Assembly (NCBI RefSeq): GCF_029894425.1
Contig: NZ_JARXYJ010000001.1
Coordinates: forward strand, 2,852,001-2,916,000
Length of the DNA: 64,000 nt
Source: Streptomyces sp. SAI-127
GTDB taxonomy: Bacteria; Actinomycetota; Actinomycetes; Streptomycetales; Streptomycetaceae
Direction: 5' to 3'
Numbering within the stretch: position 1 is the first letter of the stretch; the number at the start of each line of letters is the position of its first letter. The notes under the pieces are model-generated. The model was not told where the DNA came from and did no database searches. It saw only the letters and a program-made list of their open reading frames with translations. Of this stretch, positions 21,251 to 48,382 are shown piece after piece. The position numbers were made by a program, and so were the translations under genes.

Positions 21251-24200
21251 TCACTCCTCGGTCATCTTGCGCAGGCGGGGCCGGACGGAGGCGGACAGAT
21301 CGGTCCACCGGGTACTCAGGGCGGCGACCGTCGAGTGCCCGAAGAACGTCCTGATCGGTACGTCGACGCCCAGCTCGGCACGGATCCGGCCGATCAGGCG
21401 GGTGGCGAGCAGCGAGTGGCCGCCGAACGCGAAGAAGTCGTCGTCCAGACCGATCCGCTCGAGCCCGAGGACCTCGGCGAACAACCGGCACAGAGCCCTC
21501 TCCTCGGGTGTGCGCGGCGGGCGTGTGGCGGCGGGCGCGTAGTCGGGCGCGGGCAGAGCGCGCCGGTCGACCTTGCCGTTGGGCGTCAGGGGGATCTCGG
21601 AGAGGACGACGACGGCCGACGGCACCATGTAGTCCGGCAGCCGTGCCGCGAGGTGTTCGCGCAGTTCGGCGGCGAGCGCCCCGGATTCGCGTTCCCCGGC
21701 CCGGCCGTCTGTTCGGCGGACCACGTAGCCGACCAGCCGACGGTCGCCGGGGCCCGCGTCCCGGGCGGTCACCACGGCCCGCGCCACTTCGGGGTGCGAC
21801 AGCAGGGCCGCCTCCACTTCGCCGGGTTCGATGCGGTAGCCGCGGACCTTCACCTGGAAGTCCGCCCGGCCGAGGTAGTCGAGGGCACCGTCCGGCCGCC
21901 ATCGCACGAGGTCGCCGGTGCGGTACATCCGCTCCCCCGGCGCGAACGGGTCGGCCACGAAGCGGCCCGCGCTCAGCCCCGGCCGGCCGATGTAGCCGCG
22001 GGCCACGCCCGCGCCCGCGATGTAGAGTTCGCCGACGACGCCGGGTGGCACCAAAGACAGGCCCTCGTCCAGCACGTAGACCCGTGTGTTGGCGATCGGC
22101 CGGCCGATCGGCGGCGGGCCGGGGGCCCTGGTGACCGGTGACGCCGTGGACCAGATGGCCGTCTCGGTCGGCCCGTACAGGTTGGTGACCTCGTCCGCCG
22201 AGCTCAGCAGTGCCTCGGCCAGGTCGGCCGGGAGCGCCTCTCCGCCCACCAGGGCCCGTACGCCACGCAGACGTTCCGGGTCGTGGGACACCAGCATCTG
22301 CCACAGCGAGGGCGTGCCCTGGACGACGGTGATCCCGTGCCGCTCGATCAGACCGGCCAGGGCGGCGGGCTGGGCGACGTCCTCCTTGGCAGCCATCACC
22401 ACGGTGCCGCCGGACAGCAGCGGCAGGAACATTTCCAGTGCCGCGATGTCGAACGCCGTGGTCGTGATCGCCAGCAGCCGGTCGTGCGGCCGCAGGGGGA
22501 ACCGTCCCGCCATCGCGCTCAGGAAGTTGCCGAGCGAGGCGTGCGACACCGCGACGCCCTTCGGTGTCCCGGTCGAGCCCGACGTGTAGATGATGTAGGC
22601 CAGTTGGTCGGCGACGGCGCGCCGGACGTCCGGCGCGATGTCCGGGTACCTCGTGAAGTCCCGTGTCAGCGCATCCGTGTCGACCACCAGCGTCGGCTCC
22701 GCGTCACGCAGGACGAACGCGGTCCGTGCCGCGGGGTGGTCGGGGTCGACGGGGACATAGGCGCCGCCGGCCTTCAGTACGGCCAGGACGGCCACCACCA
22801 GGTCCGCCGACCGCGGCAGCGCCAGCGCCACCCGCCTCTCGGGGCCGACTCCGCGCTCCACGAGCCAGTGCGCGACCCGGTTCGCGCGGCTGTCCAGCTG
22901 CCGGTAGGTGACCGTGACGCCGTCGAAGACCAGCGCGGCGGAGTCCGGCGTGGCCCTCGCCTGGCGTTCGAACAGATCCAGGACCGTCTGGGTCGGCACC
23001 GGCCGCGCGGTGGCGTTGTACTCGCGCAGCAGCAGGTTCCGTTCGGCCGGATCCAGTACCTGCACCGATCCGATCGGTGCGTCCGGGTCGGCCGCGATAC
23101 CGGTCAGCACGCGGGCGAGCCGGCCGGCGATGTCGCGTGCCCGTTCCTCGGTGACGTGCTCGGGCCGGAACTGCAGGCCCACCCGCAGGTGGGGGGCCGC
23201 GTCGGCGGCGACGATCAGCGGGTAGTGGGTGCCGGTCGAGGGGCGGATGCCGGTGATGGCGATGCCCGCTGCCGTGTTCGCCTCGGTGAGCCCGGCCCGG
23301 TCGATGGGATACGACTCGAACAGCACCAGGGTGTCGAACAGGGTTCCCAGGCCCGCCTGTTGCTGGATCTCCGGCAGGCCGCAGTGATGATGGTCCATCA
23401 GGGCGGCGTGCCGGTCGTGCAGCGCCGTGAGCAGATCGGTGAACGTGTCCCCGGGCGCGTACCGGACCCGTACGGGCAGCGTGTTGACGAACAGCCCCAC
23501 CATCTCCTCGGCGTCCGGCACTGCGTGCGGACGGCCGGAGACCGTGGCACCGAACACGACGTCGCGCCGGCCGGTCAGCCGTCCGAGCAGGACGGCCCAG
23601 GCTCCCTGGACGAGGGTGCTCATCGTGACGCCCAGCTCGGCCGCCCGCCGGGACAGCTCACGGGCGACGTCCGGCGGTACCGGCACTTCGAGCTGGGCGA
23701 GCCCCCCGTGGGCGGCTTCGGCGCCGGCGCCGGGGACGAGCGTCGTCGGCTCCTGAAGCCCGTCGAGCTCCCGCGCCCAGGCGCGCAGCGACTCCGCGCG
23801 GTCCCGCCCGGACAGCCAGGTCAGGAAGTCCGAGTAGCCGCGCGTCCGCGGCAGCTTCGAGGCGTCACCGCCGGTTCCGTACAGTCGCAGGAGGTCCTTC
23901 ATCAGCAGCGGCAGCGACCAGCCGTCGAACAACGCGTGGTGTGCGGTGAGGACGAGTTCGGCACGGTCGGGACCGGTGCTGACCAGGGTCATCCGCAGCA
24001 ACGGCGGTACGTCCGGCCGGAAGTGGGTCGCGTGGTCCTCGGCCAGCAGCTGTTCGAGCGCGTCCGGCGTGCGCAGGTCGTACACGCGCCACGGCAGCTC
24101 GACCCGTTCCAGTACGAGCTGGACCTGTCGGCCGTAGGAGTCGGTGACGAACGCGGTGCGCAGGTTCGCGTGCCGGTCGAGCAGGGCCTGACCGGCCGCC

Positions 24201-27200
24201 CGCATGCGGTCAGGGTCCACGGTTCCCTCCAGGTGGAGCACCAGCTGGACGTGGTAGGCGTCGAAGGATGACCCGGCGAGCATGCTGTGGAACAGCAGCC
24301 CGGACTGCATCGGGGTGGCCGGCCATACGTCGGCGAGGCGGGGGTACCGGGCCTCCCACCGGTCGATGTCCTGCTGGCTCACCGTGACCAGCGGCAGGTC
24401 GGAGGGGGTCATGCCGCCCGCGCCGGGACCGCTGACGTGACCGGCGATGCCCTCCAGGGCGGCCACCCACAGGTCGGCCAGCCGTTGTACCTCCGCCGCG
24501 GACAGCACGCCGGTGGGGAAGCTGAACACGGCGGACAGCCGAGGCTCCTCGCCCGTGACCGCGGCGGAGATCTCCAGCGCGGACATGACGGGCAGGTCGC
24601 TGTCGGGGGCGGGGGCGCCGACGGTGGTGATCGCCCGCCAGCCCTCGGCGCGGCCGGGCATGTCGGCCGCGGTGAACTGGCCGAGGTAGTTGAAGGTGAT
24701 CTGCCCCTCCGGCAGCCCCGCCAACTCCCCACACGTCTCCGCATTCACAAACCGCAGCAACCCATAACCGAGCCCCTTGTCCGGCACCGCCGCCAACTGC
24801 TCCTTGACCGACTTCACCAACCCACCGACAACACCCCCACCGGACACCACCTCACCCACATCCACCCCCGACACATCCACCCGCACCGGGAACATGCTCG
24901 TGAACCACCCCACCGACCGCGACAGATCCGCCCCCGCCACCACCTCCTCCTGCCGCCCATGCCCCTCCAACCGCAACACCACCGACGACCCACCCCCACC
25001 CCGCCACGCACGCACCGCCACCGCCAACGCAGCCACCAGCCCATCCCCAGCACCACACCGAAACGCCCCAGGAACCCCCCGCACCAACGCACCCGTCACC
25101 CCGGCCGACAACTCCACCCGCACGCTGTCCACCGTCCCCACCACATCCACCACCGGATCCACACCCCGCGACCCCACCAGCGGATCCCCACCCGCCAACA
25201 TCCCCCGCCACCACGCCACCTCAGCCACCCGCCCCGGCCGCGACGCCTCCTCCACCAACGCATGCGCCCACCGCCGCACCGACGTCGACCCCACCGCCAA
25301 CACCGGCACACCACCCCCACACAACACCCGCCACGCCGCAGCCAAATCCCCCACCAACACCCGCCACGACACCCCATCCACCACCAAGTGATGCAACACC
25401 ACCAACAACCGGCCGGGTCCCGCCGTCGGTCGCAGCCAGACGAACTGCCCCATCACCCCGGCCGCCGGGGCGAGTCGGGCCGCGGCGGCGTCGAGCTCGG
25501 CCGCCGTGCGCCGTTCCCACGCGTCGGCCGCGCCGACGTCGACGACGCGGAGCCATGCGGCGGCGTCCACGGACCCGGGGGCGCCGACCACCAGGCCCGG
25601 TTCGGGCTCGGTGGTGAGGGTCGAGCGCAGTACGTCGTGGCGCTCGACCACGGCGGCCAGCGTCGCGGTCAGGCCGTCCTCAGTGATGCCGTCCGGAAGT
25701 TCGAGCACCATCGACATGGCGTACCGGTCGTGGCTCCCGCCCAGTTCGAGCAGGTACCTGGCCATGGGCAGCAGCGGCATCCAGCCCACGCCGCCGCCGG
25801 GCAGCTCCGCGAGCACCGGGGCGCCGCCGTCCGCGCCCTCCTGGAGGGCGGCCCGGGCGAGTTCGGCCACCGTCCGGCATTCGAAGACCTGGCGCGGGGT
25901 GATGGACAGACCCTGGGTCTTCGCGCGGGCGACCACCTGGATGGAGCGGATGCTGTCGCCGCCGATGGCGAAGAAGTCGTCGTCCACGCCGACCCGGTCC
26001 AGCCCCAGCACCTCGGCGTAGACGCCGGCCAGGACCTGCTCCGGCACCGAGGCGGGCGCCCGGTAGGCACCACCGGCCGACTCCGGTTCGGGCAGCGCGG
26101 CCCGGTCGAGCTTGCCGTTGGCGTTCAGTGGGAGCCGGTCGAGCACGACGAAGGCGGAGGGGACCATGTAGTCGGGCAGTCTGGCGGCGACGTGCCCGCG
26201 CAGTTCGGTCACCGACATGCCCGCCGTCAGGTCGACGTCCTCGAGAGTGCCCGGGCCCACCGGGACGACGTATCCGACCAGCCGTTTGCCCCCGCCGGCC
26301 TCCTCCCGGGCGGTCACCACGGCCTGGGCCACGCCCGGGTGGCCGGTGAGGACGGCTTCGATCTCCGCGGGTTCGATGCGGAACCCGCGCACCTTCACCT
26401 GGGCGTCGGCACGTCCGACGCACTCGATCTGTCCGTCGGTGGTGATCCGCGCCAGGTCGCCGGTGCGGTACATCCGGGCGCCGGGCGAGCCGAACGGGTC
26501 CGGAACGAACCGCTCGGCGGTCAGCCCGGCGCGTCCCCGGTAGCCGCGGCCGACCAGGCCGCCGACGTACAGTTCGCCCACGGCGCCCGGCGGCAGGGGG
26601 GCGAACCCGGCCCCCAGGACGTACATCCGCATGTTGGCCAGCGGCCTGCCGACCGGCACCACGCCGGTGTCCGGCAGTGCGTCGGCGTCGGCCACCTCGA
26701 ACGCGCCGGCGTAGAAGGACTCGCTCTGCCCATACGCGTTGATCAGGCGCGCACCGGGCAGTGCCGTGCGGACCTGCCGGGCCAGCCGCGTGGTCAGCGC
26801 CTCGCCGGCGAGAACGACCGTGTCCACGCCGGCGCGTCCGGCGATGTCGTCCGCCAGCCCGGCGAGGACCGACGGCACGGTACTGAGCACACCGCCGGTC
26901 CATTGGTCCCCCTCGCCCAGGACCAGGGCGTCCCGCACCAGTTCGACGGTCCCGCCCGCGCACAGCGTGGTGAACATCTCGAACAGTGACACGTCGAAGT
27001 TGACCGAGGTGCCGGCGAGCATCCGGGTCCGCTCCGTCACGCCGACCGTGCGGATGAGGGCGAGGACACCGTTGGTGAGTGCCTCGTGGGTGATGCCCAC
27101 GCCCTTGGGCGTGCCGGTGGTCCCGGAGGTGTACATCAGATAGGCCAGGTTGTCCGGCCGTGCGCCGAGCGGGTTCCGCTCGGATGCGTCGTACGGCCGG

Positions 27201-30200
27201 TCGAGCGTCAGCCGGGGCAGACCGTCGAGCGGCAGCTCGGCCGCGGTGGCGGTGTCGGTCACCACCAGGTGCGGCCGCGCGTCGGCCAGTATGTGGCCGA
27301 GGCGCCGGCTGGGGTGGGCGGGGTCGACCGGCAGGTAGACGCCGCCCGACATGAGCACGGCCAGCATCGCCACGACCAGGTGGGGAGTCCTGGGCAGCGC
27401 GACGGCCACCAGCGCTTCTGGGCGCACCCCGCGCCCGGACAGCGTCCGGGCGAGGCGGGCGGCCCGGGTGTGCAGCTGCCGATAGGTCAACTCCGTGTCC
27501 CGCCACACCAGAGCGGTCGCGTCCGGCGTCCGCTCCGCCTGCCGGGTGAAGAGACCGGCGACGGTGAGTTCCGGCAGCGGGGCGTGGGTGTCGTTCACCT
27601 CCCCCAGCAGTCGGTCCCGTTCGCCGTCGTCGAGGGCGTCGACGGCGCCGACCCGCGTCTCCGGTTCGGTGACGACCCGGCGCAACACCCGCAGGAAGCG
27701 GTCGCCGATCCGTTCGACGCTCTGCCGGTCGAACAGGTCGGTGGCGTACTCGAGGGCGCCCGAGGCACCGCCGTCCGGGTCCGGGGCGAGGTTGACCAGC
27801 AGGTCGAACTTGGCGGTGAGGGCCGGGACCGGCTCGGCGGTCACCCGCAGATCCGGCAGGTCGAGGTCCAGTGGGGCCGTGTTCTGCCAGGCGAACATGA
27901 CCTGGAACAGCGGGTGGTACGCGGTGGAACGGTCCGGGTTGAGCAGCTCCACCAGCCGTTCGAAGGGCGCGTCCTGGTGATCGTAGGCCGCCAGCGCCTT
28001 GCCGCGGACCTGCTCCAGGAGGCGGGTGAAGGAGGGGTTGCCGGACAGTCCGGTGCGCAGCACCCAGGTGTTGACGAAGAAGCCGACCAGGTCGGTGAGC
28101 GCCTCGTCGGTGCGTCCCGCGATCGGCGAACCGATGGTGATGTCGTCGCCCGCGCCCAGCTGGTGCAGCAGCACGGCCAACGCCGCCTGCAGCACCATGG
28201 CCGTGGTCGCCCCGTGCGACTGTGCCAGCTCGTCGACGGCCGCCATCAGGTCCGCGTCGATCGAGAACGCGATGCGGTCACCTTGATGGCCGGCCACCGC
28301 GGGCCTGGGCCGGTCGGCCGGCAGCGTGATGGGTCCGGGGGCGTCGGCCAGTTCGGCACGCCAGTAGGCGAACTGCTCGGCGAGCAGGCTGTCCTGGTCG
28401 TTCTCGGCGCCGAGCAGCTCGGCGTGCCACAGGGTGTAGTCGGCGTACTGCACCGACAGGTCCGGCCACGCCGGCGCCCGGCCCGCGTGCCGTGCCGCGT
28501 AGGCGGCGGACAGGTCCCGGGTCAGGGGTGCCGCGGACCCGCCGTCGGCGGCGATGTGGTGGACCACCAGCACCAGCACGTGCGTGTCGGAGGCGAGGCG
28601 CAGCAGCCGGATCCGCAGTGGCAGCTCCGTGTACAGGTCGAACTCGTGCGCGGCGAACTCGGCGACCAGCCGGGGTACGTCGTCCTCGGTCGCCGGCAGG
28701 ACCGGGATGTCCGGCATCACCTGATCGACGGGGATCACGCGCTGGTACCCGGTCCCCGCCTCGTCCTCGGTGACCAGGGTGCGCAGGCTCTCGTGCCGGG
28801 CGAGCACGTCCAGGACCGCCGAACCGAGCGCGGGCACGTCCAGCGGACCGTGCAGGCGCACCGCGAGCGGCAGGTTGTAGGTGGCGGACGGTCCCTCGAA
28901 GCGGTCGATGAACCACATGCGGCGCTGCGCGTACGACAGCGGGATGCGGTCCGGGCGCTGCGCGCGGGTCAGCGCCGGCCGGACGCGTGCGCCGTCCCGC
29001 AGCCGGGCGGCCAGCCGGGCGACCGTGGGTGCTTCGAGTACGGCGCGGATCGGCACCTCCGCGCCCAGGTCCGCGCGGATCCGGCCGACCAGCCGGGTGG
29101 CGAGCAGGGAGTGGCCGCCGAGTGCGAAGAAGTCGTCGTCCACGCCGACCCGGTCCGCCCCGAGGACCTCGGCGAACAGCCGGGCCAGGGCGTCCTCGCC
29201 CCGGGTGCGCGGGGCGATGTAGGTGGTGCCGGTGAACTCCGGCTCGGGCAGGGCGCGCCTGTCCAGCTTTCCGCTCGGTGTCAGCGGGAACCGGTCCAGC
29301 AGCACCACGGCGGAGGGCACCATGTACGAGGGCAGCCGGGTCTCGGCGAAGGCGCGTATCTCTTCCGCCGGTACAGGGCCGACGGGCGTCACGTACGCGA
29401 CCAGCCGCCGCTCGGCGCCGGCAGCCCTGGCCACGACCACGACCTGACCCACCGCGGGATGTTCGGCCAGCGTGGCCTCCACCTCCGCGGGCTCGATGCG
29501 GTATCCGCGGACCTTCACCTGTGCGTCTGCCCGCCCGGTGTACTCGAGTTCGCCGTGGGCGTTGCGCCGGCCGAGGTCTCCGGTGCGGTACATCCGGGCA
29601 CCGGGCGGTCCGAACGGGTCGGCCACGAAGCGTTCGGCGGTCAGCCCGCAGCGGCCCAGGTATCCCCGGCCCACGCACGCGCCCGCGACGTAGAGTTCAC
29701 CCGGCACGCCCGCCGGGACGGGCTGGAGTCCCGGGCCGAGGACGTACACCCGTACATTGCCCAGCGGCAGGCCGATCGGCACGGCCGCGTCGGCCGGCAG
29801 GTCCCGGTCGTCGGGCAGGGTGAACGTGGTGGCGTAGAACGTCTCGCTCTGTCCGTACGCGTTGACGACACGTGCGCCGGGCAGTGTCTGCCGGACTCGG
29901 TCGGCCAGTCCGGCGGACAGCCCCTCACCGGCGAAGACCACCGCGTCCGCGGTGACCCGGCCGGCCAGTCGCCCGGCCAGCTCGCCGAACGCGGACGGCA
30001 CCGTGCTGAGCACTCCGCCGGACCAGTTCTCCCGCTCACCGAGTGCCAGCACGTCACGGACCACGTCCACGGTGCCGCCCGTGCTCAGCGTGGTGAACAT
30101 CTCGAACACCGAGACGTCGAAGGAGATCGAGGTGCCGGCCAGCGTCCGGCCGCCGGACGGCATGCCCGGACTGTCCAGCAGGCCCAGCACTCCGTTGACC

Positions 30201-33200
30201 ACGTTGCGATGCGTGATCGTCACTCCCTTGGGGGTGCCGCTGGACCCCGAGGTGTACATCACGTAGGCGGCGTTGCCGGGCCGTGCCCGGCGGCCCGGAT
30301 CGGTGTCCGCGGTCGCGGGGATCGCGTCGGCGAGGAGGAGCCGGGGAAGGTCCGGGCAGGGCAGTGCCGCGCAGGTCGCTTCGTCGGTCAGGATCAGCAG
30401 GGGCCGGGCGTCGGACAGTACGTGGTCGAGCCGTGTGCCGGGGAAGTCGGGGTCGACGGGGAGGTAGGCCGCTCCTGACTTCAGGACGCCGAGGATCACC
30501 GTCACCAGCCGGGCCGATCGCGGCAGCGCCACGGCGATCACGGACTCCGGGCCCGCGCCGCGGGCGATGAGCGCGTGCGCCAGCCGGTTGGCCTCGGCTT
30601 CGAGCTCTCGGTAGGTGAGCGAATCGTGTTCGTCGGCCACGGCGACCGCCCCGGGGGTGCGGGCGGCCTGTCGTGCGGTCAACTCGACAACAGTCAGGTC
30701 GGGCAGCGGCACGCTCGTGTCGTTGTGCGCGTGCAGCAGGTGGTCGCGCTCACCTGGCAGCAGCGTGTCCAGCGCGGCCAGCGGCGTGGCGGGGTCCCCG
30801 GTGAGCAGGCACAGGACATGGCCGAGCCGCTCCGCCAGGTCCTCGGCCGTCTCGGGGCCGAGCACCTGCCGCTGGTACTGGAGGGTGACGCGCAGGTGGG
30901 GGTCGGCGGCGGCGAGCAGGGTGAGCGGGTAGTGGGTGACGGTGAAGGGGCGGATGCCGGTGATCTCGACGCCCGCGGCGGTGTTGGCCTCGCTGATGCC
31001 CGCCCGGTCGACCGGGTAGGACTCGTAGGCGACCAGGGTGTCGAACAGCACGTCCAGCCCGGTCAGCCGGTGCAGTTCGGTGAGCGGGTGGTGGTGGTGT
31101 TCGAGCAGTGCGGCCTGCCGCCGCTGCAACCCGGTCAGCAGGTCGCCGACGGTGTCGCCCGGGGTGAACCGCACGCGTGCCGGGACCGTGTTGACGAACA
31201 GTCCGATCATCGTGTCCACTTCGGCGACCTCGGCCGGCCGGCCCGAGACAGTGACGCCGAACACGACGTCCTGCCGTCCGGTGAGCTGGGCCAGCAGCAG
31301 TCCCCAGGCGCTCTGGAGCACGGTGTTGACCGTGACGCCGAGGTCGGCCGCGCGCCGGGTCAGGAGCATCGCGTCCGCGGCGGACAGCGGTACGTCGAGC
31401 CGCCCGATGCCAACGGGGTCGTCGCCGGGCGCGGTGCCCGGGCCGGTGAGGACGGGGGCGAGCAGGGTGGGTTCCTCGACGCCGTCGAGTTCGTCGGCCC
31501 ATGCCCACTCCGAGGCGGCGGGATCCCGCCGGGCCAGCCAGTCCAGGAACTGCCGGAAGTCGCGTGGCCGGGGCAGCGCGGCCGGGTCACCCGCGGTGGT
31601 GTACAGCCGTAGCAGCTCGGTCATCAGGACCGGCAGCGACCAGCCGTCGAACAGCAGATGGTGGGAGGTGAGGACGAGTTCGGCGCGCTCGGTGCCGGTG
31701 CGCAGCAGGGTCATCCGCAGTAGCGGCGGGGTGTCGAGGGCGAAGTGGTCGCCCAGGTCCTCGGCCAGGAACCGGTCGACGGCTCGGCCGACGCCGTCGG
31801 CGGGCAGGTCGGCGAGGTTGATCTCCCGCCAGGGCAGGGTCACACCGTCGACCACGAGTTGCACGGGCTCACCGTCGTCCGCGGTGACGAACGCGGTGCG
31901 CAGGCTGGTGTGCCGGTCGAGCAGGGCCTGACCGGCCGCCCGCATACGGTCCGCGTCCACCGGTCCGCTCAGGTGGAAGACGAGCTGGATCCGGTAGGCG
32001 TCGAACGACGTGTCGGCCAGGGCGGCGTGGAACAGCAGTCCCGACTGGAGCGGGGTCAGCGACCATACGTCGGCGAGGCGGGGATACCGGGCCTCCCACC
32101 GGTCGATGTCCTGCTGGCTCACCGTGACCAGCGGCAGGTCGGAGGGGGTCAGGCCGCCCGCGCCGGGACCGCTGACGTGACCGGCGATGCCCTCCAGGGC
32201 GGCCACCCACAGGTCGGCCAGCCGTTGTACCTCCGCCGCGGACAGCACACCGGTGGGGAAGCTGAACACGGCGGACAGCCGAGGCTCCTCGCCCGTGACC
32301 GCGGCGGTCACGTCGAGGGCGGACATGACGGGCATGTCCGCGGCCGGCGGTGCCTGCAGGCCGCCGGCCTCGGGAGCGGGGACCCAGCCGTCGTGTCCCG
32401 AACCGGAGGGGGTCCGGGCCAGGTCGCCGAGGTAGTTGAAGGTGATCTGCCCCTCCGGCAGCCCCGCCAACTCCCCACACGTCTCCGCATTCAAAAACCG
32501 CAACAACCCATAACCGAGCCCCTTGTCCGGCACCGCCGCCAACTGCTCCTTGACCGACTTCACCAACCCACCGACAACACCCCCACCGGACACCACCTCA
32601 CCCACATCCACCCCCGACACATCCACCCGCATCGGGAACATGCTCGTGAACCACCCCACCGACCGCGACAGATCCGCCCCCGCCACCACCTCCTCCTGCC
32701 GCCCATGCCCCTCCAACCGCAACACCACCGACGACCCACCCCCACCCCGCCACGCACGCACCGCCACCGCCAACGCAGCCACCAGCCCATCCCCAGCACC
32801 ACACCGAAACGCCCCAGGAACCCCCCGCACCAACGCACCCGTCACCCCGGCCGACAACTCCACCCGCACGCTGTCCACCGTCCCCACCACATCCACCACC
32901 GGATCCACACCCCGCGACCCCACCAGCGGATCCCCACCCGCCAACATCCCCCGCCACCACGCCACCTCAGCCACCCGCCCCGGCCGCGACGCCTCCTCCA
33001 CCAACGCATGCGCCCACCGCCGCACCGACGTCGACCCCACCGCCAACACCGGCACACCACCCCCACACACCACACGCCACGCCGCAGCCAAATCCCCCAC
33101 CAACACCCGCCACGACACCCCATCCACCACCAAGTGATGCAACACCACCAACAACCGGCGGGCGGTGGGGAACCAGACCATGCGCGCCATCACGCCCGCG

Positions 33201-36200
33201 GCCGGGTCGAGTTCGGCGGCGGCGGCCCGGGCTTCCTCGTCCAGCAGCCGTCGCCAGTCCTCCCCGTCCGTGTCCCCGGCCCACGCGGCGCGCCGGATCA
33301 GGCCGTCCGTGCGCAGGGGTTCGCCGGCCACCAGACCGGGCTCGGGTTCCTGAACCAGGCAGGACCGCAGGACGGCGTGGTGGTCCAGTACCGCGGTCAC
33401 GGTCGCGGTGAGCCCGGCCTCGTCCACGTCGGGCGGCAGGGTCAGCACCATGCTCTGTGCGAAGGCCGCACAGTCCCCACCGAGTTGGAGGACGTATCGC
33501 GCGATCGGCGACAGCGGCATCCACCCGGCGGCGCCGCCGTCGAGTTCGGCCAGCGCCGTGCCTCGCTCGCCGGTGGTGTCCGCGGCCGCGGCGAGGCGGG
33601 CGACGGTCCGGTGCTCGAACACCTGCCGGGGGTCGATTCCGATGCCGGCCGCGCGAGCCTGTACGGCCACCTGGATGGAGCGGATGCTCTCTCCCCCGGC
33701 GGCGAAGAAGTCGTCGTCCACGCCGACCCGGTCCAGCCCCAGCACCTCGGCGTAGATGGTGGCCAAGATCTCCTCGACCGCCGACTCCGGGGCCCGGTAA
33801 GTCTCTGACGTCGTGTCGGGCGCGGGCAGGGCGGCACGGTCCAGCTCACCGGCGTCGGTCATCGGCAGCCGGTCCAGGACGACGAGCGCGGCGGGCACCA
33901 TGGGTTCCGGCAGCCGGCGGGCCGCGAAAGCCCGCAGTTCGGCGACGGAGACGCCTGCCGTCAGGTCGACATCGGTGTCGCCGGTCGCCCCGGAGGCCGC
34001 GACCACGTATGCCACCAGCCGCCGTTCGCCCCTGGCCCCCTCGCTCGGCAGGACGACGGCCTGTGTGACACCCGGGTAGGCCAGCAGCGCCGTCTCCACC
34101 TCGGCCGGTTCGGCGAGGAGACCGTCCACCCGCACGCGCGTGGCGGTCGTGCCGACGAACTCCAGCGCCCCGTCCGGGGTGATCCGCGCCAGGTCACCGG
34201 TGCGGTACATCCGCGCGCCGGGTGGCCCGAAGGGGTCCGGAACGAACCGCACGGCGGTCAGCCCGGCGTGTCCCCGGTAGCCGCGCGCGACACCGGCACC
34301 GGCGACGTACACCTCGCCCACCGAGCCCGGTGGCGGCGGTGTCAGACCGGGCCCGAGCAGACGCACATGGGCGAGGGGAGTGTCCGTGGCCGTCTCGGAG
34401 CTCCCGTAGAGGTCGGCCAACGCGAGGGACCGGGGCAGTTGGGCGGTCCACTCGGCCAGCCGTGCCCTGTCGGGGCGTTCGCCGACCAGGAGCACGGTGC
34501 GGGACCTCGCGTCGGAGTCGGGTCGTTCGGCGGCGGTGTGTGCGTGCGTGACCAGCGCGTCGAGCGTGGCCGGATCGAGGGTGAGCGTGGTGACGGTGCC
34601 GTCGGCGAGCAGTCCCCACAGCGCGGCGGGAGACCGCCGTACCTCCTCCGTCACGACCGCCGTGCGGCCGCCGTTCAGCAGGGCCGCGCACACTTCCCAC
34701 ACCGCGATGTCGGTCGCGGGCGAGTGGCTCCAGGCCACTACGTCGTCCCGGCCCGGACCGCGGTCGGCGCTGGTGGTGATCGACGACAGTACGTTGCGGT
34801 GGGTCAGGGCGACGCCGCGCGGCCGCCCGTCCGGGCCGGACACGGACAACAGGAAGGCCAGGCCGTCGGGGTGCGCGAGGTCGACGCCGGCCGTCTGCTC
34901 GCCGGTGTTCTCCTGCGGCGGGAGAAGCAGTCTCGGGATGCCGACGGCGGGCAGCCGGTCGGCGCACGCCACGTCGGTCAGCACCAGTCGTGGGGCGGCG
35001 TCGGCCAGGACGAGGGCGGTCCGGTCGGCGGGGTGGGCCGGGTCGACCGGCAGACAGGCCCCGCCGGCCTTGAGCACGGCGAGGGCGGCCACGGCCCACT
35101 CCGGGGAGCGCGCAAGGGCGATCGCCACGACGCTCTCCGGGACGACGCCATAGTCCATCAGGACGTGGGCCAGGCGGTCGGCTCGGGCGTCCAGCTCGCG
35201 GTAGGTCAGCTCCGCCGGGCCGTGGACCAGCGCGACGGCATCCGGTGTCTCCGCCACCCTCCGGGCGAACTCGCCGGTGAGGGTGGTCTGCGGCACAGGT
35301 GAGGCGGCGTGGATCCGCCCGCCGGTCCGCTCGCCAGGGGTGCGGACATCGACGGCGCCCACGGGCAGCGCAGGGTCGGCCACGACCTGGCGCAGCACCC
35401 GGACGTACCGGTCCGCGATCCGTTCGACGCCGGCCCGGTCAAACAGGTCGGTCGCGTACTCGATCCCGCCGCGCAGCCCCCGCCCCTGGGCGTCCGGTCC
35501 CACGTTGAACAGCAGGTCGAACTTCGACGTGCCGGTGGAAGCGAAGGTCCACTCCGCGCGCACCCCGGCCAGGTCGAACCCTGGCAATACGTCCTGCCAG
35601 GCGAACATCACCTGGAACAGGGGGTGGTAGCCGAGGGAGCGCTCGGGGTTGAGGTGCTCGACGAGCTGGTCGAACGGCGCGTCCTGGTTGTCGTAGGCGG
35701 CCAGTGCCTTGGCTCCGACCTGCGCCAGCACGCGTTCGAACGGCTGGTGCGGGGACAGCCGCACGCGCAGCACCCAGGTGTTGACGAAGAAGCCCACCAG
35801 GTCGGCGAGGACCTCGTCCGTGCGGCCCGCGATGGGCGAGCCAAGGGCGAGGTCGTCCCCGCAGCCCATCTGGTGGAGCAGCACCGCCAGCGCCGTCTGC
35901 AGCACCATCGACGGCGTGGCACCCCGGTCACGAGCCAACTGCTGTACTGCGTAGAGCAGTTCGGGTTCGACGCCGAACTCGACGACACCGCCGCGGTGGT
36001 CGGCCACCTCCGGGCGCGGTCGGTCGGCCGGCAGCCGCATCGGCTGCGGCAGGCCCGCGAGTTCGCGCTGCCAGTACGTCAGCTGGCGGGCCAGCAGGCC
36101 GTCCGCGTCGGGTCCGTCCGCCAGCAACTGCCGCTGCCAGAGGGTGTAGTCGGCGTACTGCACGGGCAGTGCGGGCCAGTCCGGAGCAGTGCCGCGCAGC

Positions 36201-39200
36201 CGGGCCGTGTACGCCGTGGACAGGTCCCGTCCGAGCGGCAGGACGCTTTCACCGTCCCCGGCGATGTGGTGGAGGACCAGGACCAGTACGTGCTCCTCGG
36301 CGGAGAGGCGGAGCAGGTCCGCGCGGACCGGTAGGTCGCGGGCGAGGTCGAACAGCCGAGCCGCCGACTCGGTCACCGCGGCGTCGAGCGTCTCCGGCCG
36401 GGCCTGCAGGACGGGGATGTCGATCACGGCCTCGGCCGCGGGGATGACCCGCTGGTGGGGGACGCCGTGCTCGTCCTCGGCGACCACCGTGCGCAGGGCT
36501 TCGTGGCGGCCGACCACGTCCCGCAGCGCGGCGCCGAGGGCGGCCGGGTCGAGCGGGCCGCTCAGTCGGAACACCGCGGGGATGTTGTAGTCGGCCGACG
36601 GCTCCTGGAACCGGTGCAGGAACCACAGCCGCCGCTGTGCGTAGGACAGCGGCAGGCGGTCCGGACGCTGCGCCGGCCGCAGCGGCGGGCGCGCGGGGGC
36701 CTCTGCGTCCAGCCGGCCGGCGAGTTCGGCGACGGTGGGCCCGGCGAAGACCACGCCGATGGAGAGCTCGGCACCCAGCTCGGCCCGGATACGGTTCACG
36801 AGCCGGGTGACGAGCAGCGAATGGCCGCCGAGCAGGAAGAAGTTGTCGTCGACGCCGACCCGTTCCACACCGGTCAACTCGGAGAACAGCCGTGCGAGGG
36901 TCTCCTCGCGCGGTGTGCGGGGTGCCCGGTAGCGCTCGTGGTGGAGCTCCGGGTCGGGCAGCGCGGCGCGGTCCACCTTGCCGTTCGGGTTGATCGGCAG
37001 TCGGTCGAGCACGACGAAGGCCGCGGGCACCATGAACTCCGGCAGTCGGTCGGTCAGGAACCGGCGCAGGTCGTCCACGGCCGGCGGCTCGGCCGCGGCC
37101 ACATAGGCCACCAGTTGCTTCCCGCCGCCCGCGCCCGGGTCGTCGCGGGCGACCACGACGGCCCCGGAGAGCTCCGGGTGGCTTTCGAGGGTGGCGGCGA
37201 TCTCGCCGGGCTCGATCCGGAAGCCGCGGATCTTGACCTGGTCGTCGGCGCGGCCGACGAACACCAGCTCCGCGTCGGCCGTCCACACAACGACGTCCCC
37301 TGTGCGGTACATCCGCTCGCCCATCCCGCCGTAGGGGCAGGCGACGAACCGCTCCGCCGTCAGCGCGCTTCGGCCCAGGTAGCCCCGGGCGAGGCCGGAA
37401 CCGGCCAGATACAGCTCACCGGGGCAACCGGGGGGCACCGGCCGCAACGCGTCGTCCAGCACGTAGGCGCGGGTGTTGTCCATCGGGCGGCCGATCGGGA
37501 TGTCGTCGCCGGCGTTCCCCTCGGTGCCCACCGGGTGGCAGGTCGCGTAGACGGTCGTCTCGGTGGGGCCGTAGACGTGGACGAACGTCGTCCCCGGGCA
37601 GGCGCGCACCGCCGTGCGGACGGTCTCGGGGCTGACCCGCTCGCCGCCCGTCCACACCTGGCTCAAGCCGGTGAAGCAGCCGGGATCCTGCTCCACCAGG
37701 AGGTTGAAGAGTGCGGTCGTCAGAAACACCGACGAGAGGCGCTCTACGGCCACGAGGTCCGCGAGCGCGGCACAGTCGAGGTCCCCAGGGGGCGCCACGA
37801 CGATGCGTCCGCCGTGCGCCAGCGGCACCCAGATCTCGTACGTCGACGCGTCGAAGACGTGCGGCGACCGCAGCAGCACCCGTTCCTGGCCGGACTCCCA
37901 CCGCTCATCCAGCACAAGGTCGACGATGTTTCGGTGGGTCACACCGATGCCCTTGGGCACCCCGGTCGATCCAGAGGTGTACATGACGTAGGCGAGCCGG
38001 TCGGCCTGACCGCCCTCGCTGATCGTCTCGTCCGGCAGAGCACCCGGACTGTCCAGAAGGACCGAGGGGCAGACGGTGTCGGGGACGGCACCGACATGTG
38101 CGGTGGTGGTGAGCGTCAGCACCGGACGGGCGTCGCGAACCATGCGCGTCACCCGCTCGGGCGGGTACCCGGGGTCGATCGGCAGGTAGGCGCCGCCCGC
38201 TTTGAGGACCGCGAGCAGTGCCACCACCAAGTCGGACGACCTGGGCAGCACCACCGCCACCAGGGAGTCGGGGGTGACGCCGCGCCGTCGCAGCCCGGCA
38301 GCGAGCCGATCCGAGCGTTCGTCGAGTTCCCGATGGCTGAGCGAGGTCTCACCGTCGACCACGGCGACCGCGTCGGGCGTGGCGCGGGCCTGCCGCCGCA
38401 CCAGGTCCGGAACGGTCCGCTCGGGGGTCGGCCTGGTGGTGTCGTTGACCTCGGTGACCAGCAGGTCGCGATGGTCCGGCCGGACCACGTCGAGCCGCCC
38501 GACGGGCACGTCGGGCCGGTCCGCCACGGCGCGTGTCAGCTGGAGCAGTTCCTCGGCGAGCAGCCGCAGTTCGGCGGCGCCGTAGAGAGACGGCGGGGCA
38601 TCCAGGCGGATGTTGAGGTCTCCGCCGTCGCGACCGTCGTGGTACGTGGAGATCGTCAGTTCGTCGACGGTGCCCCATGCCCCGCTGTACAGGTGCGCCC
38701 GGCTGCCCGCGAAGTCGAGCGCGGTGACGTACGGGATCACGTTGACCAGGACTCCGAACGGGCTCCGCGTGGTCCCGACCGCGCCGGTGCCGCGCTGAAT
38801 GTCGCTCACGTGGTGCCGGGCGTGGGCGAACACCACCCGGCGCTCCGCGGCCACGGCAGCGGTGATCTCGGCGAAGCTCGCCGAGACCGGGACCCGGGCC
38901 CGGATGGGCACCACGTTCATGGTCAGTCCGGGGGCGCGCTGCACTGCCTCGTCCCGGTTCTTCGTACTGAGGGAGAACACCAGTTCACGCAGTCCGCACC
39001 GTCGGCCGAGGTAGGTGGCCGCGGCTGCGGCGAGGAAGGCCGGCATGCGTACGCCCAGGTCACCGGCCGCCTTCTCCCACGCCGCCGCCTCGCTCCCGGG
39101 GACGGCCACCACGCGGCTCACCACGCCGATGGCGTCGCTCAGGCCGGCCCAGCGGTCCGCCGGCTCGGTCCGCTCGTGAAGGCCGTGGCCCAGCAGCCGT

Positions 39201-39844
39201 GACGCGGTGGTGCCGAGACCTGGCAGCCGGGCCGGTGCGGTGCCCTGCGCCAGGTAGTCCTGCCAGAAGCGCGCGTCGTCGGTGTACCGCTGCGACGTCC
39301 GGTACCGCCGGTCGGCGTCCACGATCCCCTCGGCTCCGTCGAACCGTGCCTCGGGCACGGGCCGTCCGCCGACCAGTGCGGTGTAGATCTCCGCCGTACG
39401 ACCGGACAGCAGGGACATCACGCCGTAGCCATCGGCCACCACGTGGTGGAACACCTGCACCAGCAAATGCCGGGCGGGCGCGAGGCGGATCACGCCGACG
39501 CGGTACAGGAGGTCGCGGGCCAGGTCGAAGGGGCGACCGATCAGGTCGGTGAGGAGGGTGTAGGCGGCCGCTTCGGGATCCGGTCGGTCGCTGACATCGT
39601 GCAGGAACGGGCGCAGTCGGCCCGGGTCGCCGATCACCTGCCGGAGTGCGTCCCCCTGCTCCACGAAGTTCACGAGCGTGGCATCAGCCTCGTGGAACAC
39701 CTGCCGGATTGCGGTCTCCAGGACGCCCGGATCGACGTCGCCGACGATGTCCCAGAGCATCGACGCGTTGTTGGAAAACTCCGGAGCCATTTTCTGTGCA
39801 AGCCACAGTCCTTGCTGGGCCGACGACACGCCAAACGAACGCAA
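21251..39844 (-). CDS. NRPS, modules 1-5 (C-A-PCP, C-A*-PCP-E, C-A-PCP, C-A-PCP-E, C-A-PCP)
   Basis: A 6197-residue NRPS. Approximate domains: C1 1-470 (HHVVADG); A1 473-960; PCP1 968-1040; C2 1061-1505; A2 1518-2005 (degenerate); PCP2 2018-2085 (GGES); E1 2101-2548 ([11 protein letters not shown]); C3 2580-3028; A3 3041-3531; PCP3 3545-3615; C4 3630-4075; A4 4088-4585; PCP4 4595-4665 (GGDS); E2 4680-5128; C5 5161-5600; A5 5618-6095; PCP5 6115-6178. Codes by eye: A1 DAYFWGVVYK (unassigned); A3 and A4 DVFSVAAYAK (piperazate); A5 DILQLGLIWK (glycine). C3 and C5 follow E domains and carry [18 protein letters not shown], the DCL form. A starting C1 implies an acyl or aminoacyl donor in trans. A GTCC-N8-GGAC palindrome lies about 95 nt upstream. 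Confidence 0.96.
24322..24567 (-). repeat. E2-C5 junction block, copy of 32062-32307
   Basis: Nearly identical over ~246 nt to 32062-32307 (offset 7740). It encodes the end of the epimerase ([18 protein letters not shown]) and the linker into the next C domain ([22 protein letters not shown]). It is separated from the larger duplicated block (24681-25413) by ~113 nt of diverged sequence with a 6-nt length difference, a pattern of patchy gene conversion. Confidence 0.85.
24681..25413 (-). repeat. Near-identical epimerase segment, copy 1 (module 4)
   Basis: 733 nt matching 32427-33159 with no indels and about five base differences by eye (offset 7746). It covers the central and C-terminal half of the E domain, from HHLVVDG to FNYLG. 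Its sense strand uses many GGT, GAT, GTT, TTG and GGG codons, whereas flanking NRPS sequence is dominated by GGC, GAC, GTC and CTG. The plus strand is accordingly CCACC-rich. Confidence 0.92.
32062..32307 (-). repeat. E1-C3 junction block, copy of 24322-24567
   Basis: Partner of the block at 24322-24567, encoding the E domain end and E-C linker of module 2/3. Identity stops abruptly at both ends. Confidence 0.85.
32427..33159 (-). repeat. Near-identical epimerase segment, copy 2 (module 2)
   Basis: Partner of 24681-25413. Outside this block the two E domains diverge (for example the N-terminal parts ending ...[13 protein letters not shown] versus ...[14 protein letters not shown]). The homogenised core is therefore a recombination or gene-conversion tract rather than a recent whole-domain duplication. 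Confidence 0.92.
33830..35290 (-). other. Inactivated adenylation domain of module 2
   Basis: An A-domain fold is recognisable (YRTGD and the flanking C and PCP are intact), but core motifs are lost. The A3 phosphate loop, normally TSGSTGxPKG, reads [12 protein letters not shown] (about 34801-34865). A5, normally YGPTE, reads YGSSE (about 34395-34415). A8, normally GRxDxQVKxRG, reads [11 protein letters not shown]. The A10 lysine of GKxDR is Glu (AGELDR; GAG codon at 33845-33847). The reading frame is open throughout, so the domain is expressed but should not activate an amino acid. The WE(V)CAALLNGG stretch resembles the free-standing A domain at 45813 (WEIWAALLNGG). Confidence 0.85.
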
Positions 39845-42813: not shown

Positions 42814-42819
42814 TTCCGG

Positions 42820-44008: not shown

Positions 44009-44803
44009 ATGACAACCCGGTTTTCCCAGGACGCAGTTCGCGATCTTTCGAATCCGCATCCCGAGGAGGAATTGACCGACACCTGGAACCCACGTCCTTC
44101 GTCCGGCAATGCCATGAGGGTTGTGGTCGTCGAGGAGCAGGAGGTGATCCGTCGCGGCCTGCTCGCCCTCATGTCGTCAATACCGGGGGTCTCCGCCTCC
44201 GCCGTGGCGTGCGTGCCGGCCCGGGACGAGCAGATGTCCGCGGACTTCGACGTCACGCTGATCTCCACTTCCGCGCTGGTGAGCGCGGAACGTGCCGGAT
44301 GTGGCGTGGAACACCTGCGGCCGGTGATCGTGATAGTTCCCGCGGCCGAACCACATCTGTTCGAGATCGCGACGCGGCAGCCGGCCGACGGCTATCTCAT
44401 GCAGGACGAGCTGACGTCTCGATCACTGCACACCGCTCTCGTACAGGTGAGGGAGGGGCAACTGGCCGTTCCGGACACGGTGGCCGCCTATCTGCTCAGC
44501 CGCTCCCGCGGCACGAGTTCCGTGCTACTGCCTCAGCTCTACCACTTGAGTTCACGCGGGGCCGAGGTGCTGGGCCTCCTGGTCGCCGGGGCGAGCAACA
44601 AGGAGATCGCCAGCAGGATGGGCATCTCCATTCACGGGGTGAAGCGCCATGTCTCGGCGCTGCTCAGCCAGTTCCACTCACCCAACCGGGTCCATCTCGT
44701 CTCCCTGGTCCTGCAGTCCGGCGCGCTGTCCGCCGGAGAGTTCAACGGTACGTTCTCGGCGACGGCCGTCCCCACCGCTACGGCACCCACGCGCCGGCGC
44801 TGA
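44009..44803 (+). CDS. LuxR/NarL-type transcriptional regulator with atypical receiver
   Basis: A 264-residue protein (a shorter start at ATG 44114, MRVVVVEEQEV, is possible). The middle has a CheY-like receiver fold (VVVVEEQEVIRRGLLALM), but the expected phospho-Asp strand reads FDVTLISTS, so it probably is not phosphorylated. The C-terminal ~65 residues are a LuxR helix-turn-helix: LSSRGAEVLGLLVAG then SNKEIASRMGISIHGVKRHV. The region between 43633 and its start holds a GTCC-N8-GGAC palindrome, and five other copies stand before cluster genes, so this is the leading candidate for the pathway activator that binds them. Its 3' end overlaps the convergent thioesterase gene by 26 nt. Confidence 0.87.
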   Translation: MTTRFSQDAVRDLSNPHPEEELTDTWNPRPSSGNAMRVVVVEEQEVIRRGLLALMSSIPGVSASAVACVPARDEQMSADFDVTLISTSALVSAERAGCGVEHLRPVIVIVPAAEPHLFEIATRQPADGYLMQDELTSRSLHTALVQVREGQLAVPDTVAAYLLSRSRGTSSVLLPQLYHLSSRGAEVLGLLVAGASNKEIASRMGISIHGVKRHVSALLSQFHSPNRVHLVSLVLQSGALSAGEFNGTFSATAVPTATAPTRRR

Positions 44804-45542
44804 CCGCCGCCACGTCCTCGACGAGGGCCTCGACGACCTGGTCCACATGGTCGCGGACGAAGAAGTGATCCCCGGGGAAGTGGGTGACCCCGAGGAACCT
44901 GCTCGCGTGGCCGGCCCAGCTCGCCATCTCCTCGACCGGGGTCACGGTGTCGGCGACACCGCCCATGGCACGCACCGGCACACCCAGCCGCGGCCCATCC
45001 GGTTCGTACACGTATGTCCGACAGAGTCGGAAGTCGGCCCGCAGCACCGGCAGCGTGAAGGCCAGCACCTCCGGGTCCGCCAGGACCTCCGGCGGCACCC
45101 CGCCGAGCCGCCCGAGCACCTCGACGAACCGGTCGTCCGGTGCGGCCGGGTCCGGCAGTCGTTCCTGCGGCGTGCCCTCCACCAGCCAGGAGGCAGAGAC
45201 ATAGAGAGCGGGCGGGGCCAGTCGGCGGCGCTGGACGGCCCGGATCAGCTGGTGCGCGAGGAGCGCGCCCATGCTGTGCCCGAACAGCACGTACGGCGGC
45301 CGCAGTTCGGGTCCGAGACCGGCGGCCAGTCGGTCCGCCGCCGCGGTGCAGTCCGTGAACGCCGGCTCGGGGTGCCAGGCATGCCGGCCCGGCAGCCGGA
45401 TCGCCCGCAACTCGATACCGGGCGGCAGACGGTGCGCCCACGCCCGGAACATCGTCGCGTCCCCGCCGGCGCACGGCAGGCAGTACAGCCGTACCGCGGC
45501 GGCCGGACGGGGAGCGTAGACGGAGAACCAGGGAGAGGGCAC
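44778..45542 (-). CDS. Type II thioesterase of the halogenation cassette
   Basis: A 254-residue alpha/beta-hydrolase with LYCLPCAGGDATMF, nucleophile elbow GHSMG (about residue 94), an acid in GGVADTVTPVEEM and the catalytic His in HFPGDHFFV. All are TEII features. The nucleophile is Ser, unlike the Cys of SyrC-type aminoacyl transferases. The start is GTG 45542, one base after the PCP stop (TGAGGTG), so it is coupled to the PCP. It could release the chlorinated amino acid from the free PCP (as in CytC-type systems), transfer it, or proofread. Family certain; role inferred from position. Confidence 0.92.
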   Translation of the reverse strand: MPSPWFSVYAPRPAAAVRLYCLPCAGGDATMFRAWAHRLPPGIELRAIRLPGRHAWHPEPAFTDCTAAADRLAAGLGPELRPPYVLFGHSMGALLAHQLIRAVQRRRLAPPALYVSASWLVEGTPQERLPDPAAPDDRFVEVLGRLGGVPPEVLADPEVLAFTLPVLRADFRLCRTYVYEPDGPRLGVPVRAMGGVADTVTPVEEMASWAGHASRFLGVTHFPGDHFFVRDHVDQVVEALVEDVAAVSAGAWVP

Positions 45543-45543: not shown

Positions 45544-45816
45544 TCAGCCGCGCCCGGTCGCGCGGTCGATCGCGCGGGCCAGGCTGCCGAGCCTCGGGTC
45601 CTCGTAGAGGGTGTCAGGCGACAGGACGTCGGGCCCGAACCTCTTCTCGACGCGCTGCAGCAGCTTGATCGCGGTGAGCGAGGTGCCCCCGGCTTCGAAG
45701 AAGTCGTCCGTGGAGCGGACGTCCGGGCGCGCCAGCAGGTCGCGCCACATCTCGGCGAGTGCCGACTCGGTGGGGGTCATCGTCTCCACGGCGGACTGGT
45801 GGGTCGCTTCGCTCAT
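45544..45816 (-). CDS. Free-standing peptidyl carrier protein
   Basis: A 90-residue carrier with the phosphopantetheine site DDFFEAGGTSLTAIKL, serine in GGTSL. The start is ATG 45816, overlapping the A-domain stop by ATGA; the longer upstream frame belongs to A-domain DNA. It carries the amino acid activated by the adjacent A domain while the SyrB2-type halogenase acts on it, as SyrB1-T, CytC2 and KtzC do in their systems. The loaded PCP may then feed the first C domain, or module 2 whose own A domain is dead. Confidence 0.94.
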   Translation of the reverse strand: MSEATHQSAVETMTPTESALAEMWRDLLARPDVRSTDDFFEAGGTSLTAIKLLQRVEKRFGPDVLSPDTLYEDPRLGSLARAIDRATGRG

Positions 45817-47435: not shown

Positions 47436-48382
47436 CGCCCCTCGAAGGGTGTGCCGTTGATCGTGCGGTCGACGAACCGGTTGTGGCCGAACTCGTCCTT
47501 GCCGGAGACCAGCACGCAGCCCCACTTCTCCAAGCTGACCTCGACTCCGTACTCCGCCAGGGTGTCCTGATACGGGTAGACCCGCACCGCCGTGGGCACG
47601 TACCGCGCGGTGAAGCCGAGGCGCATCTTGTCGGTCAGGCCGCTGTGCGGATGCGAGGCATGCATGAGCGTCGACCAGAACATGATCGCCTGGCCTTGGC
47701 GCATGACCATCGACTCGGCCCTGGACTCGTCGGGGCTCCAGTTCGGGTCCTTCTGCAGCTGCCGGTAGTCGTAGCCGTAGAAGCCGCGCCGGACACCGTT
47801 CTTGACACTCTGGTTGATGCGGTCGGCGTCGTACTCGATGGCCTTGTTCTCGTCATAGTTCATCGTCCGGTGCGAGCCCGGGATGAATTGGAGGCAGCCG
47901 TTCTCGATGGTGGAATCCGTGAAGGCGGTCCACACGGTGAGGGCGCCGCCGAAGCCGGCGTCCTCCGGCCAGACGATCTGCGGATGCTTCCCCACGTTGG
48001 CGAAGTTGTCCGCCTGGTGCCAGTCGGTACCCTCGTCGCCGGGGTACTTGGGGAAGAACTCCGTCCGCCAACACAGCGCATCGGCACCGAGGACGCTTGT
48101 CACCCGGTCGACGATCTCCGGCCGAGTGACGTGCTTGGCCAGGAAATCGACGTCCAGGTGCCGATCATAGCTGGCCAGGTTGGTCGTGCCGGACAGTGCG
48201 TTGCCCTGATGGTAGACGCCCTTTCGACTGTCGATGAGTTTCGGCCGCATGGCCTGAAGCGCCCGCTCCATCTCCTCGGGCTCGTACACGTCGAATGGAC
48301 CGATGAATCCATCGCGCTGGAATTGATCGAGTTCTTGAGAGCTCAGTGCGTGATTGACGGCCGCGCCGACGGCATTCGCCAT
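47432..48382 (-). CDS. Fe(II)/2-oxoglutarate halogenase, SyrB2/CytC3 type
   Basis: 316 residues, nearly the length of SyrB2, with very similar sequence throughout (FFPKYPGDEGTDWHQADNFAN, TVWTAFTDSTIENGCLQFIPG, GVRRGFYGYDYRQLQ, FWSTLMHASHPHSG). The decisive feature is HQA at the iron site: Ala replaces the carboxylate of the usual HxD, which opens a place for chloride. The second His is in LMHASHPHSG and the 2-oxoglutarate Arg in KMRLGFTARYV. It chlorinates an unactivated carbon of an amino acid held on a PCP. It heads a four-gene coupled cassette (halogenase, A, PCP, TE; ATGA overlaps). A GGAAGGG site precedes ATG 48382. Chlorine might be retained, or used to form a ring or alkene later. Confidence 0.95.
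   Translation of the reverse strand: MANAVGAAVNHALSSQELDQFQRDGFIGPFDVYEPEEMERALQAMRPKLIDSRKGVYHQGNALSGTTNLASYDRHLDVDFLAKHVTRPEIVDRVTSVLGADALCWRTEFFPKYPGDEGTDWHQADNFANVGKHPQIVWPEDAGFGGALTVWTAFTDSTIENGCLQFIPGSHRTMNYDENKAIEYDADRINQSVKNGVRRGFYGYDYRQLQKDPNWSPDESRAESMVMRQGQAIMFWSTLMHASHPHSGLTDKMRLGFTARYVPTAVRVYPYQDTLAEYGVEVSLEKWGCVLVSGKDEFGHNRFVDRTINGTPFEGR

Follow-up and report, generated by a model that had tools for sequence, protein, structure and literature searches.

Free chlorinated amino acids are produced by CytC1-C3 and Thr1 of Streptomyces, for which we know of no acceptor nonribosomal peptide synthetase (NRPS) module, and 4-chlorothreonine is also contained in actinomycins G and Z of Streptomyces. 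Delivery of chlorothreonine to an assembly line is described for syringomycin of Pseudomonas, where the residue is shuttled with the participation of SyrB1, SyrB2, SyrC, and SyrE (PMC8949500, section 4.1). The same section describes the albicidin, cystobactamid, ramoplanin, and enduracidin systems, in which an inactive adenylation (A) domain in cis is complemented by a stand-alone A-T protein. Complementation of an inactive A domain in trans and shuttling of chlorothreonine are each already known separately from this account (PMC8949500).

Here, we analyze an NRPS locus of Streptomyces sp. SAI-127 in which the two appear to be combined. The stretch of DNA under study (hereafter, the window) comprises 64,000 nucleotides, positions 2852001-2916000 of contig C1 of this genome (G000); coordinates below refer to the window unless preceded by C1, in which case they refer to the genome. 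Judging from the sequences, module 2 of NRPS-A is predicted, with a probability of about 0.83, to be filled in trans by an operon similar in composition to SyrB1, SyrB2, and SyrC that lies outside the window, with the A domain of the module, A2, kept as a dead scaffold and D-4-chlorothreonine placed at position 2 of the product.

The assembly line and its surroundings

The assembly line consists of two proteins encoded on the minus strand. NRPS-A (21251..39844) has the domain order C1-A1-T1, C2-A2-T2-E1, C3-A3-T3, C4-A4-T4-E2, and C5-A5-T5, and NRPS-B (13115..21247) has the order C6-A6-MT-T6 and C7-A7-T7-TE, with Ser as the nucleophile of the thioesterase (GWSGG). The domain borders, including those of C2 and E1, and the assignment of the epimerization (E) domains were set by us. 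The code of both A3 and A4 is DVFSVAAYAK, which we take to be a piperazate code, and that of A5, DILQLGLIWK, is presumably for glycine. The piperazate reading of A3 and A4 is consistent with two other proteins encoded in the window, namely, an ornithine N-monooxygenase at 49105-50442 and, at 52397-53041, an FMN_bind_2 protein that is presumably of the KtzT family. A dimethylargininase/arginine dihydrolase family protein (L052:18920-19798; NF045659, 429 bits), encoded ~0.2-1.1 kb left of the window, might supply ornithine toward piperazate.

Several other features of the assembly line were observed, some of them in comparison with the related NRPSs introduced below. E1 (32195-33517) and E2 (24425-25777) have a run of 145 identical residues in common, and in P0018 the two domains share a run of 114 residues, the E1 domains of P0018 and the window being 73% identical; this looks like gene conversion between E1 and E2 within each lineage. 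The A5 core (21530-23017) is only 53-54% identical to its counterparts in P0013, P0016, P0017, P0048, and P0067, and the adjoining C5 and T5 are 65-70% identical, which would fit a swap of the A5 domain in one lineage. NRPS-A starts with C1 (38495-39844), in which HHVVADG is intact; because no module precedes C1 in the same protein, its donor has to be supplied from elsewhere. Of 392 Streptomyces genomes, 31 encode a relative of C1 at 42-48% identity, the frame being 1,066-1,200 aa long in 23 cases; relatives at 41-43% were also detected in Rhodococcus (L003-L007). Between the gene for an electron-transfer flavoprotein and NRPS-A lies a YbaK/EbsC-like gene (40064-40558; TIGR00011, 49 bits, under the cutoff of 153), without a match at the corresponding place in S. 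curacoi, that possibly provides self-protection against a mischarged analog.

Lesions in the adenylation domain of module 2

A2 (33830..35302, minus strand; residues 1515-2005 of NRPS-A) was aligned with the eight further A domains that the cluster encodes, namely, A1, A3, A4, A5, A6 (minus its C-terminal part), A7, and two free-standing ones. The preliminary description, made from the window alone, had correctly located A2 (given there as 33830-35290) within an open frame, which extends over 6,197 aa, and had listed the P-loop, the A5 and A8 motifs, and the A10 lysine as all lost. The alignment bears this out for the P-loop (A3 motif; 34814..34855), for the A8 motif (34109..34153), and for the A10 motif (33836..33853), which reads AGELDR, with Glu replacing the catalytic Lys; the A5 motif (DLYGSSE; 34394-34414), by contrast, is just partly degenerate (all on the minus strand). 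The A7 motif (YRTGD) is intact. Between the A5 and A6 motifs, A2 is short of ~21 residues, with 25 left compared to 43-48 in the eight other domains. Both the P-loop and the A10 lysine are kept in A1, A3, A4, A5, A7, and the two free A domains, and A6, which is interrupted by a methyltransferase, has a P-loop and NGKLDR at A10. As judged by these motifs, A2 is the sole dead A domain among the seven of NRPS-A and NRPS-B, which makes the carrier domain of its module, PCP2, the obvious acceptor.

The other domains of module 2 carry intact motifs, as already observed in the preliminary description. C2 (35336..36658, minus strand), a match to Pfam Condensation, retains HHIAGDG; PCP2 (T2; 33560..33757, minus strand), the proposed acceptor of 4-chlorothreonine, retains GGESIRS; and in E1 (32195..33517, minus strand), which matches the Condensation family, the motif is intact as well. 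Downstream, C3 retains HHLLFDGWS. By motif, module 2 has C and T domains yet no working A domain.

A sequencing or assembly error as the cause of the lesions is unlikely and was set aside because the A2 of S. curacoi, 79% identical to that of the window, carries the same lesions. Weak residual activity of A2, with threonine still loaded in cis, would be compatible with its Pfam AMP-binding match (200 bits, against 244-322 for five of the intact A domains in this cluster and 313 for the free A domain outside the window) and with the A10 lysine kept in three relatives. The chance of this is close to negligible, however, given that in the window and in S. curacoi the P-loop, the A8 motif, and the A10 lysine are all gone, with a deletion besides, and that the pocket residues of A2 (DIWTLVLTD) no longer fit the threonine code. 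With a score of 200 bits, A2 would pass automatic annotation at the Pfam level as a normal A domain, and a wrong product would be predicted.

Module 2 in related NRPSs

For comparison, we compiled a set of nine NRPSs: those of the window and S. curacoi (L001), P0013, P0016, P0017 (S. natalensis), P0018, P0023, P0048, and P0067 (S. ziwulingensis). These are the best BLAST matches to the A2 region among the best 120 of 811 proteins, with P0003, the window's own copy, dropped; the next match, P0028, starts with a different C domain, and the comparison was stopped there. The S. curacoi sequence ends at a contig end after 2,254 residues, the assembly breaking inside NRPS-A. A separate search for close A2 domains (E 1e-105) covered 395 relatives and had the SAI-127 genome itself as its sole match.

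A2 is degenerate in eight of the nine NRPSs, the window counted, and the degenerate domains form one clade (support 100/100). All eight have V[SAG]GP in the position where intact domains have TSG[ST]. The A10 lysine is lost in five of the eight and kept in P0017, P0048, and P0067, and the A2 of S. natalensis, at 253 bits in Pfam, falls inside the range of intact domains; by these features, the latter three may have residual activity. In P0023, A2 is intact and has the threonine code DFWNVGMVHK, and the mildly decayed A2 of P0013 still reads DVWNIAMVH. In the phylogenetic tree, the A2s group with the free A domain from outside the window (support 92/99), and the P0023 A2 is placed with the free A domains, apart from the other A2s, with moderate support (82/85); the branch of the free A domains is long, and that of P0067 was also flagged for its length. 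The simplest reading, which we infer from the clade of degenerate A2s and the V[SAG]GP change common to them, is an ancestral threonine-activating A domain that was inactivated once and has been decaying since.

The pattern of selection is compatible with this reading. Between the window and S. curacoi, dN/dS is 0.454 for A2 (bootstrap 0.334-0.609), compared to 0.204 for A1, 0.222 for C1, 0.253 for C2, 0.129 for T1+T2, and 0.213 for part of E1, and the A2 value exceeded that of A1 in 1000 of 1000 resamplings. Being above its neighbors yet not neutral, A2 appears to evolve under relaxed rather than absent selection, as expected of a body kept without an enzymatic role; together with the Pfam scores, these values suggest that the fold is retained. 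The comparison with S. natalensis is weaker in that the value for the A2 core (0.51) is not unique there (A5 core, 0.54; T5, 0.52; C1, 0.41).

Relaxed selection on A2 would also be expected if module 2 were skipped or the entire assembly line were decaying, an explanation that we consider highly improbable and set aside on the evidence from selection and motifs. The motifs of C2, PCP2, and E1 are intact, and dN/dS is low for both T1+T2 (0.13) and the E1 part (0.21), the former implying that PCP2 is in use. Furthermore, PCP2 shows 95% amino acid identity to its counterpart in S. curacoi and 82% in S. natalensis, the latter value being higher than those of the A and C domains, and module 2 could be aligned end to end in seven full-length relatives.

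The halogenase cassette inside the window

The window itself encodes a set of proteins that the preliminary description had proposed as the donor to PCP2. This cassette, denoted cassette 1 (40927-48382), includes halogenase 1 (47432..48382; HQAD; TIGR01762), a close relative of SyrB2 and CytC3 (428 bits to SyrB2 chain 2fct and 410 bits to CytC3), a free A domain with the code DIWLTGLCIK (45813..47435), a free PCP (45544..45816; Pfam PP-binding), and a type II thioesterase with a Ser nucleophile in GHSMG (44778..45542; Pfam Thioesterase), all on the minus strand. Also present in cassette 1 are a fused electron-transfer flavoprotein and a 270-aa protein (42820-43632) that has no match in Pfam, NCBIfam, or the PDB and, by eye, resembles a haem-oxygenase-like diiron oxidase.

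Filling of PCP2 by the free A domain, PCP, and halogenase of cassette 1 is consistent with the location of the cassette in the same cluster and on the same strand as the NRPS genes, which it adjoins in S. curacoi too, with the similarity of halogenase 1 to SyrB2, and with the apparent presence of halogenase 1 and the NRPS on one contig in NPDC004629. The code of its A domain, however, is unlike that for threonine, whereas the intact relative of A2 has a threonine code; the only candidate for a transferase is the Ser thioesterase, in place of a Cys enzyme; and the free A domain of cassette 1 was not found in the S. natalensis cluster (78 kb examined), although A2 is degenerate there. On these three grounds, cassette 1 (44778-48382) was set aside as the donor to PCP2, the original proposal being probably wrong and the scenario unlikely. 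A relative with the composition Hal-PCP-TE-A (70, 44, 29, and 54% identity, respectively) on contig C18 of S. natalensis (L065) leaves room for action at a distance by a cassette of this type.

Clusters of this kind seem to include both cassettes, since halogenase 1 and the SyrC-like gene described below apparently reside on one contig in NPDC004629, NPDC007095, S. lavendulae, and S. mirabilis. A plausible client of cassette 1 is C1, perhaps via the PCP of the cassette.

A second halogenase operon outside the window

In S. natalensis, four genes located ~13-17 kb downstream of NRPS-B, on the same contig as the NRPS, encode a free A domain together with a PCP, a halogenase, and an alpha/beta-hydrolase that contains GLCGG. 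This hydrolase was used to search the SAI-127 genome and yielded a 71% match 5 kb to the left of the window, at C1:2845741-2846937. The match belongs to an operon (C1:2845723-2849818, minus strand) just left of the window start (2852001), with the gene order A, PCP, halogenase, and SyrC-like.

The first gene encodes a free A domain (C1:2848220-2849818; AMP-binding) with an intact P-loop and A10 Lys. Its best stand-alone A domain matches among those listed from the PDB are 3vnq (371 bits) and 5n9w (361 bits), which we take to be CytC1 and Thr1, ranked eighth and ninth behind LgrA chains, 8xjz, and ObiF1. The code, DFWNIGMVHK, has been published as a threonine code, both in PMC4169593 and in the section of PMC12283262 devoted to this amino acid, which points to a free threonine-specific A domain. 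A carrier protein (C1:2847932-2848192; PF00550 PP-binding, 41.5 bits) is encoded between the A domain and the halogenase. The halogenase of the Fe/2OG type (C1:2846966-2847913; TIGR01762, 450 bits against a cutoff of 226) has WHQAD, an HxA motif in which Ala replaces the iron-ligand Asp/Glu; we take this Ala to occupy the iron-ligand position of Fe/2OG halogenases.

The last gene (C1:2845723-2846937) encodes an alpha/beta-hydrolase (PF00561 Abhydrolase_1) that we denote SyrC-like, purely as a label. Cys227, an Asp, and a His are each invariant in the best 120 of 449 homologs, the own copy counted, and the GxCxG elbow suggests that these residues are catalytic. The preliminary description, having found no thioesterase with a Cys nucleophile, had left the transfer step unexplained. 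This holds within the window but not beyond it: 5 kb outside, a Cys enzyme is encoded together with a threonine-coded A domain, a PCP, and a second halogenase. These genes, invisible to a reading limited to the window, offer an answer to the question of who loads module 2 and how.

In S. curacoi and S. natalensis, the four genes lie beside the same NRPS genes, with identities of 87-96% and 67-87%, respectively; in S. curacoi, a contig other than that of the NRPS-A start holds all four as well as NRPS-B and the NRPS-A tail (89 and 88%, respectively). Going by equal lengths of the longest contig, the SyrC-like gene and the NRPS apparently also share a contig in NPDC004629 (133,826), NPDC018045 (334,718), and P9-2B-2, the last being a whole chromosome (8,743,146) that implies no distance between the genes. 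In S. ziwulingensis (P0067), the SyrC-like gene is on a contig other than that of the NRPS, and none was found alongside P0048 (degenerate A2) or P0023 (intact A2) among the best 120 of 449 homologs.

The SyrC-like gene (E 1e-60 or better) is present in 10 of 392 Streptomyces genomes, including SAI-127 itself and G316. Among eight further Streptomyces genomes with this gene, seven encode the A domain, the halogenase, and the SyrC-like enzyme side by side. The A frames of these seven span 605-681 aa and could thus accommodate an A-T didomain, and all seven codes conform to DFW[NS]VGMVHK, or to DFW[NS][IV]GMVHK with S. curacoi and S. natalensis included. No halogenase or A domain was detected within the 20 kb region examined around the SyrC-like gene at L057:9377-10522.

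An operon of this composition could be used in another way, with the threonine-specific A domain loading PCP2 directly, without halogenation or a shuttle, and the halogenase and the Cys enzyme serving a different step or making free 4-chlorothreonine. Direct trans-acting A domains for threonine are known in Streptomyces, as in the case of WS9326A (PMC7539972), and the title of one of the references in PMC8949500 names 4-chlorothreonine biosynthesis in Streptomyces sp. OH-5093. We nevertheless regard direct loading as very unlikely: it would leave a dedicated PCP and a Cys enzyme idle, and the four genes stay together in three species, as do those for the A domain, halogenase, and SyrC-like enzyme in seven of eight further genomes.

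Proposed route to position 2

Under the favored scheme, that is, loading of module 2 through the halogenating operon, module 2 of NRPS-A would originally have activated threonine through its own A domain, which then lost catalysis and stayed as a structural part of the module. The free A domain encoded outside the window would activate L-Thr and load the free PCP; the Fe/2OG halogenase would chlorinate the PCP-bound Thr to 4-Cl-Thr; and the alpha/beta-hydrolase-fold enzyme would take 4-Cl-Thr on its Cys and hand it to PCP2. C2 would then join 4-Cl-Thr to residue 1, and E1 would invert it to D-4-chlorothreonine at position 2, with no prediction as to the configuration at C3. In kind, this agrees with the preliminary description, which was probably right in suggesting SyrE-like loading in trans and a D-configured, possibly chlorinated residue; A2 is very probably dead.

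A more comprehensive reading, to which we give somewhat better than even odds, is that a portable cassette for threonine chlorination took over a working threonine module. In this reading, with 4-chlorothreonine being supplied in trans, A2 was inactivated once in an ancestor shared by the eight NRPSs (TSGST to V[SAG]GP), decayed stepwise in all of them, and persists as a scaffold between C2 and PCP2. The relatives would then form a cis-to-trans series, and the product would be a previously unreported peptide that contains two piperazates and an internal D-4-chlorothreonine and may carry a further chlorinated unit, which C1 would receive from cassette 1. Svetamycin was considered as the product and set aside, there being no chlorothreonine in the portions of its published descriptions that were consulted.

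The prediction is specific as to both the residue and its position. The nine NRPSs present graded states of A2 (intact; P-loop changed and lysine kept; all lost) and would allow the switch from cis to trans to be studied stepwise. The series bears on the reprogramming of modules and on the question of what regions of a dead A domain are still required by its module.

Comparison with known systems

The presence of an ornithine N-monooxygenase, an FMN_bind_2 protein, and two A domains with DVFSVAAYAK (presumably specific for piperazate) likens the locus to the clusters for kutzneride and other piperazic acid NRPS products. A literature search combining piperazic acid with chlorothreonine had an engineered pyoverdine as the sole match among the records seen. 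Among the titles and abstract openings of the matches listed, with subscription journals mostly outside the coverage, the literature on inactive A domains, chlorothreonine, SyrC/SyrB2, and piperazic acid yielded no case of a replaced A domain still in place in an internal epimerizing module with relatives at stages of the switch.

With the albicidin type, as presented in section 4.1 of PMC8949500, the locus shares an A domain that is kept in cis but non-functional, with eroded core motifs (low motif conservation is described for albicidin), and complementation in trans. The difference is that there, a stand-alone A-T didomain acts, whereas here, A and PCP are encoded by separate genes, accompanied by a halogenase and a Cys enzyme; that section describes neither a shuttle enzyme nor a halogenase for albicidin, cystobactamid, ramoplanin, or enduracidin.

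The likeness to syringomycin encompasses a threonine-activating free A domain, a carrier protein, a SyrB2-type halogenase, a shuttle protein, and a module unable to activate its own residue (PMC8949500, section 4.1). In contrast to SyrE, in which, according to that section, the ninth module is wholly without an A domain and last in the line, A2 is present, although degenerate, and its module is internal and epimerizing. Furthermore, SyrB1 is an A-T protein, whereas the A domain and PCP are separate proteins here. Because A2 is physically present, the arrangement is a variant of the syringomycin scheme rather than the same one. We conclude that the combination of a probably dead A domain scaffold, predicted shuttling of chlorothreonine, an internal epimerizing module, and graded relatives represents a new variant of that scheme.
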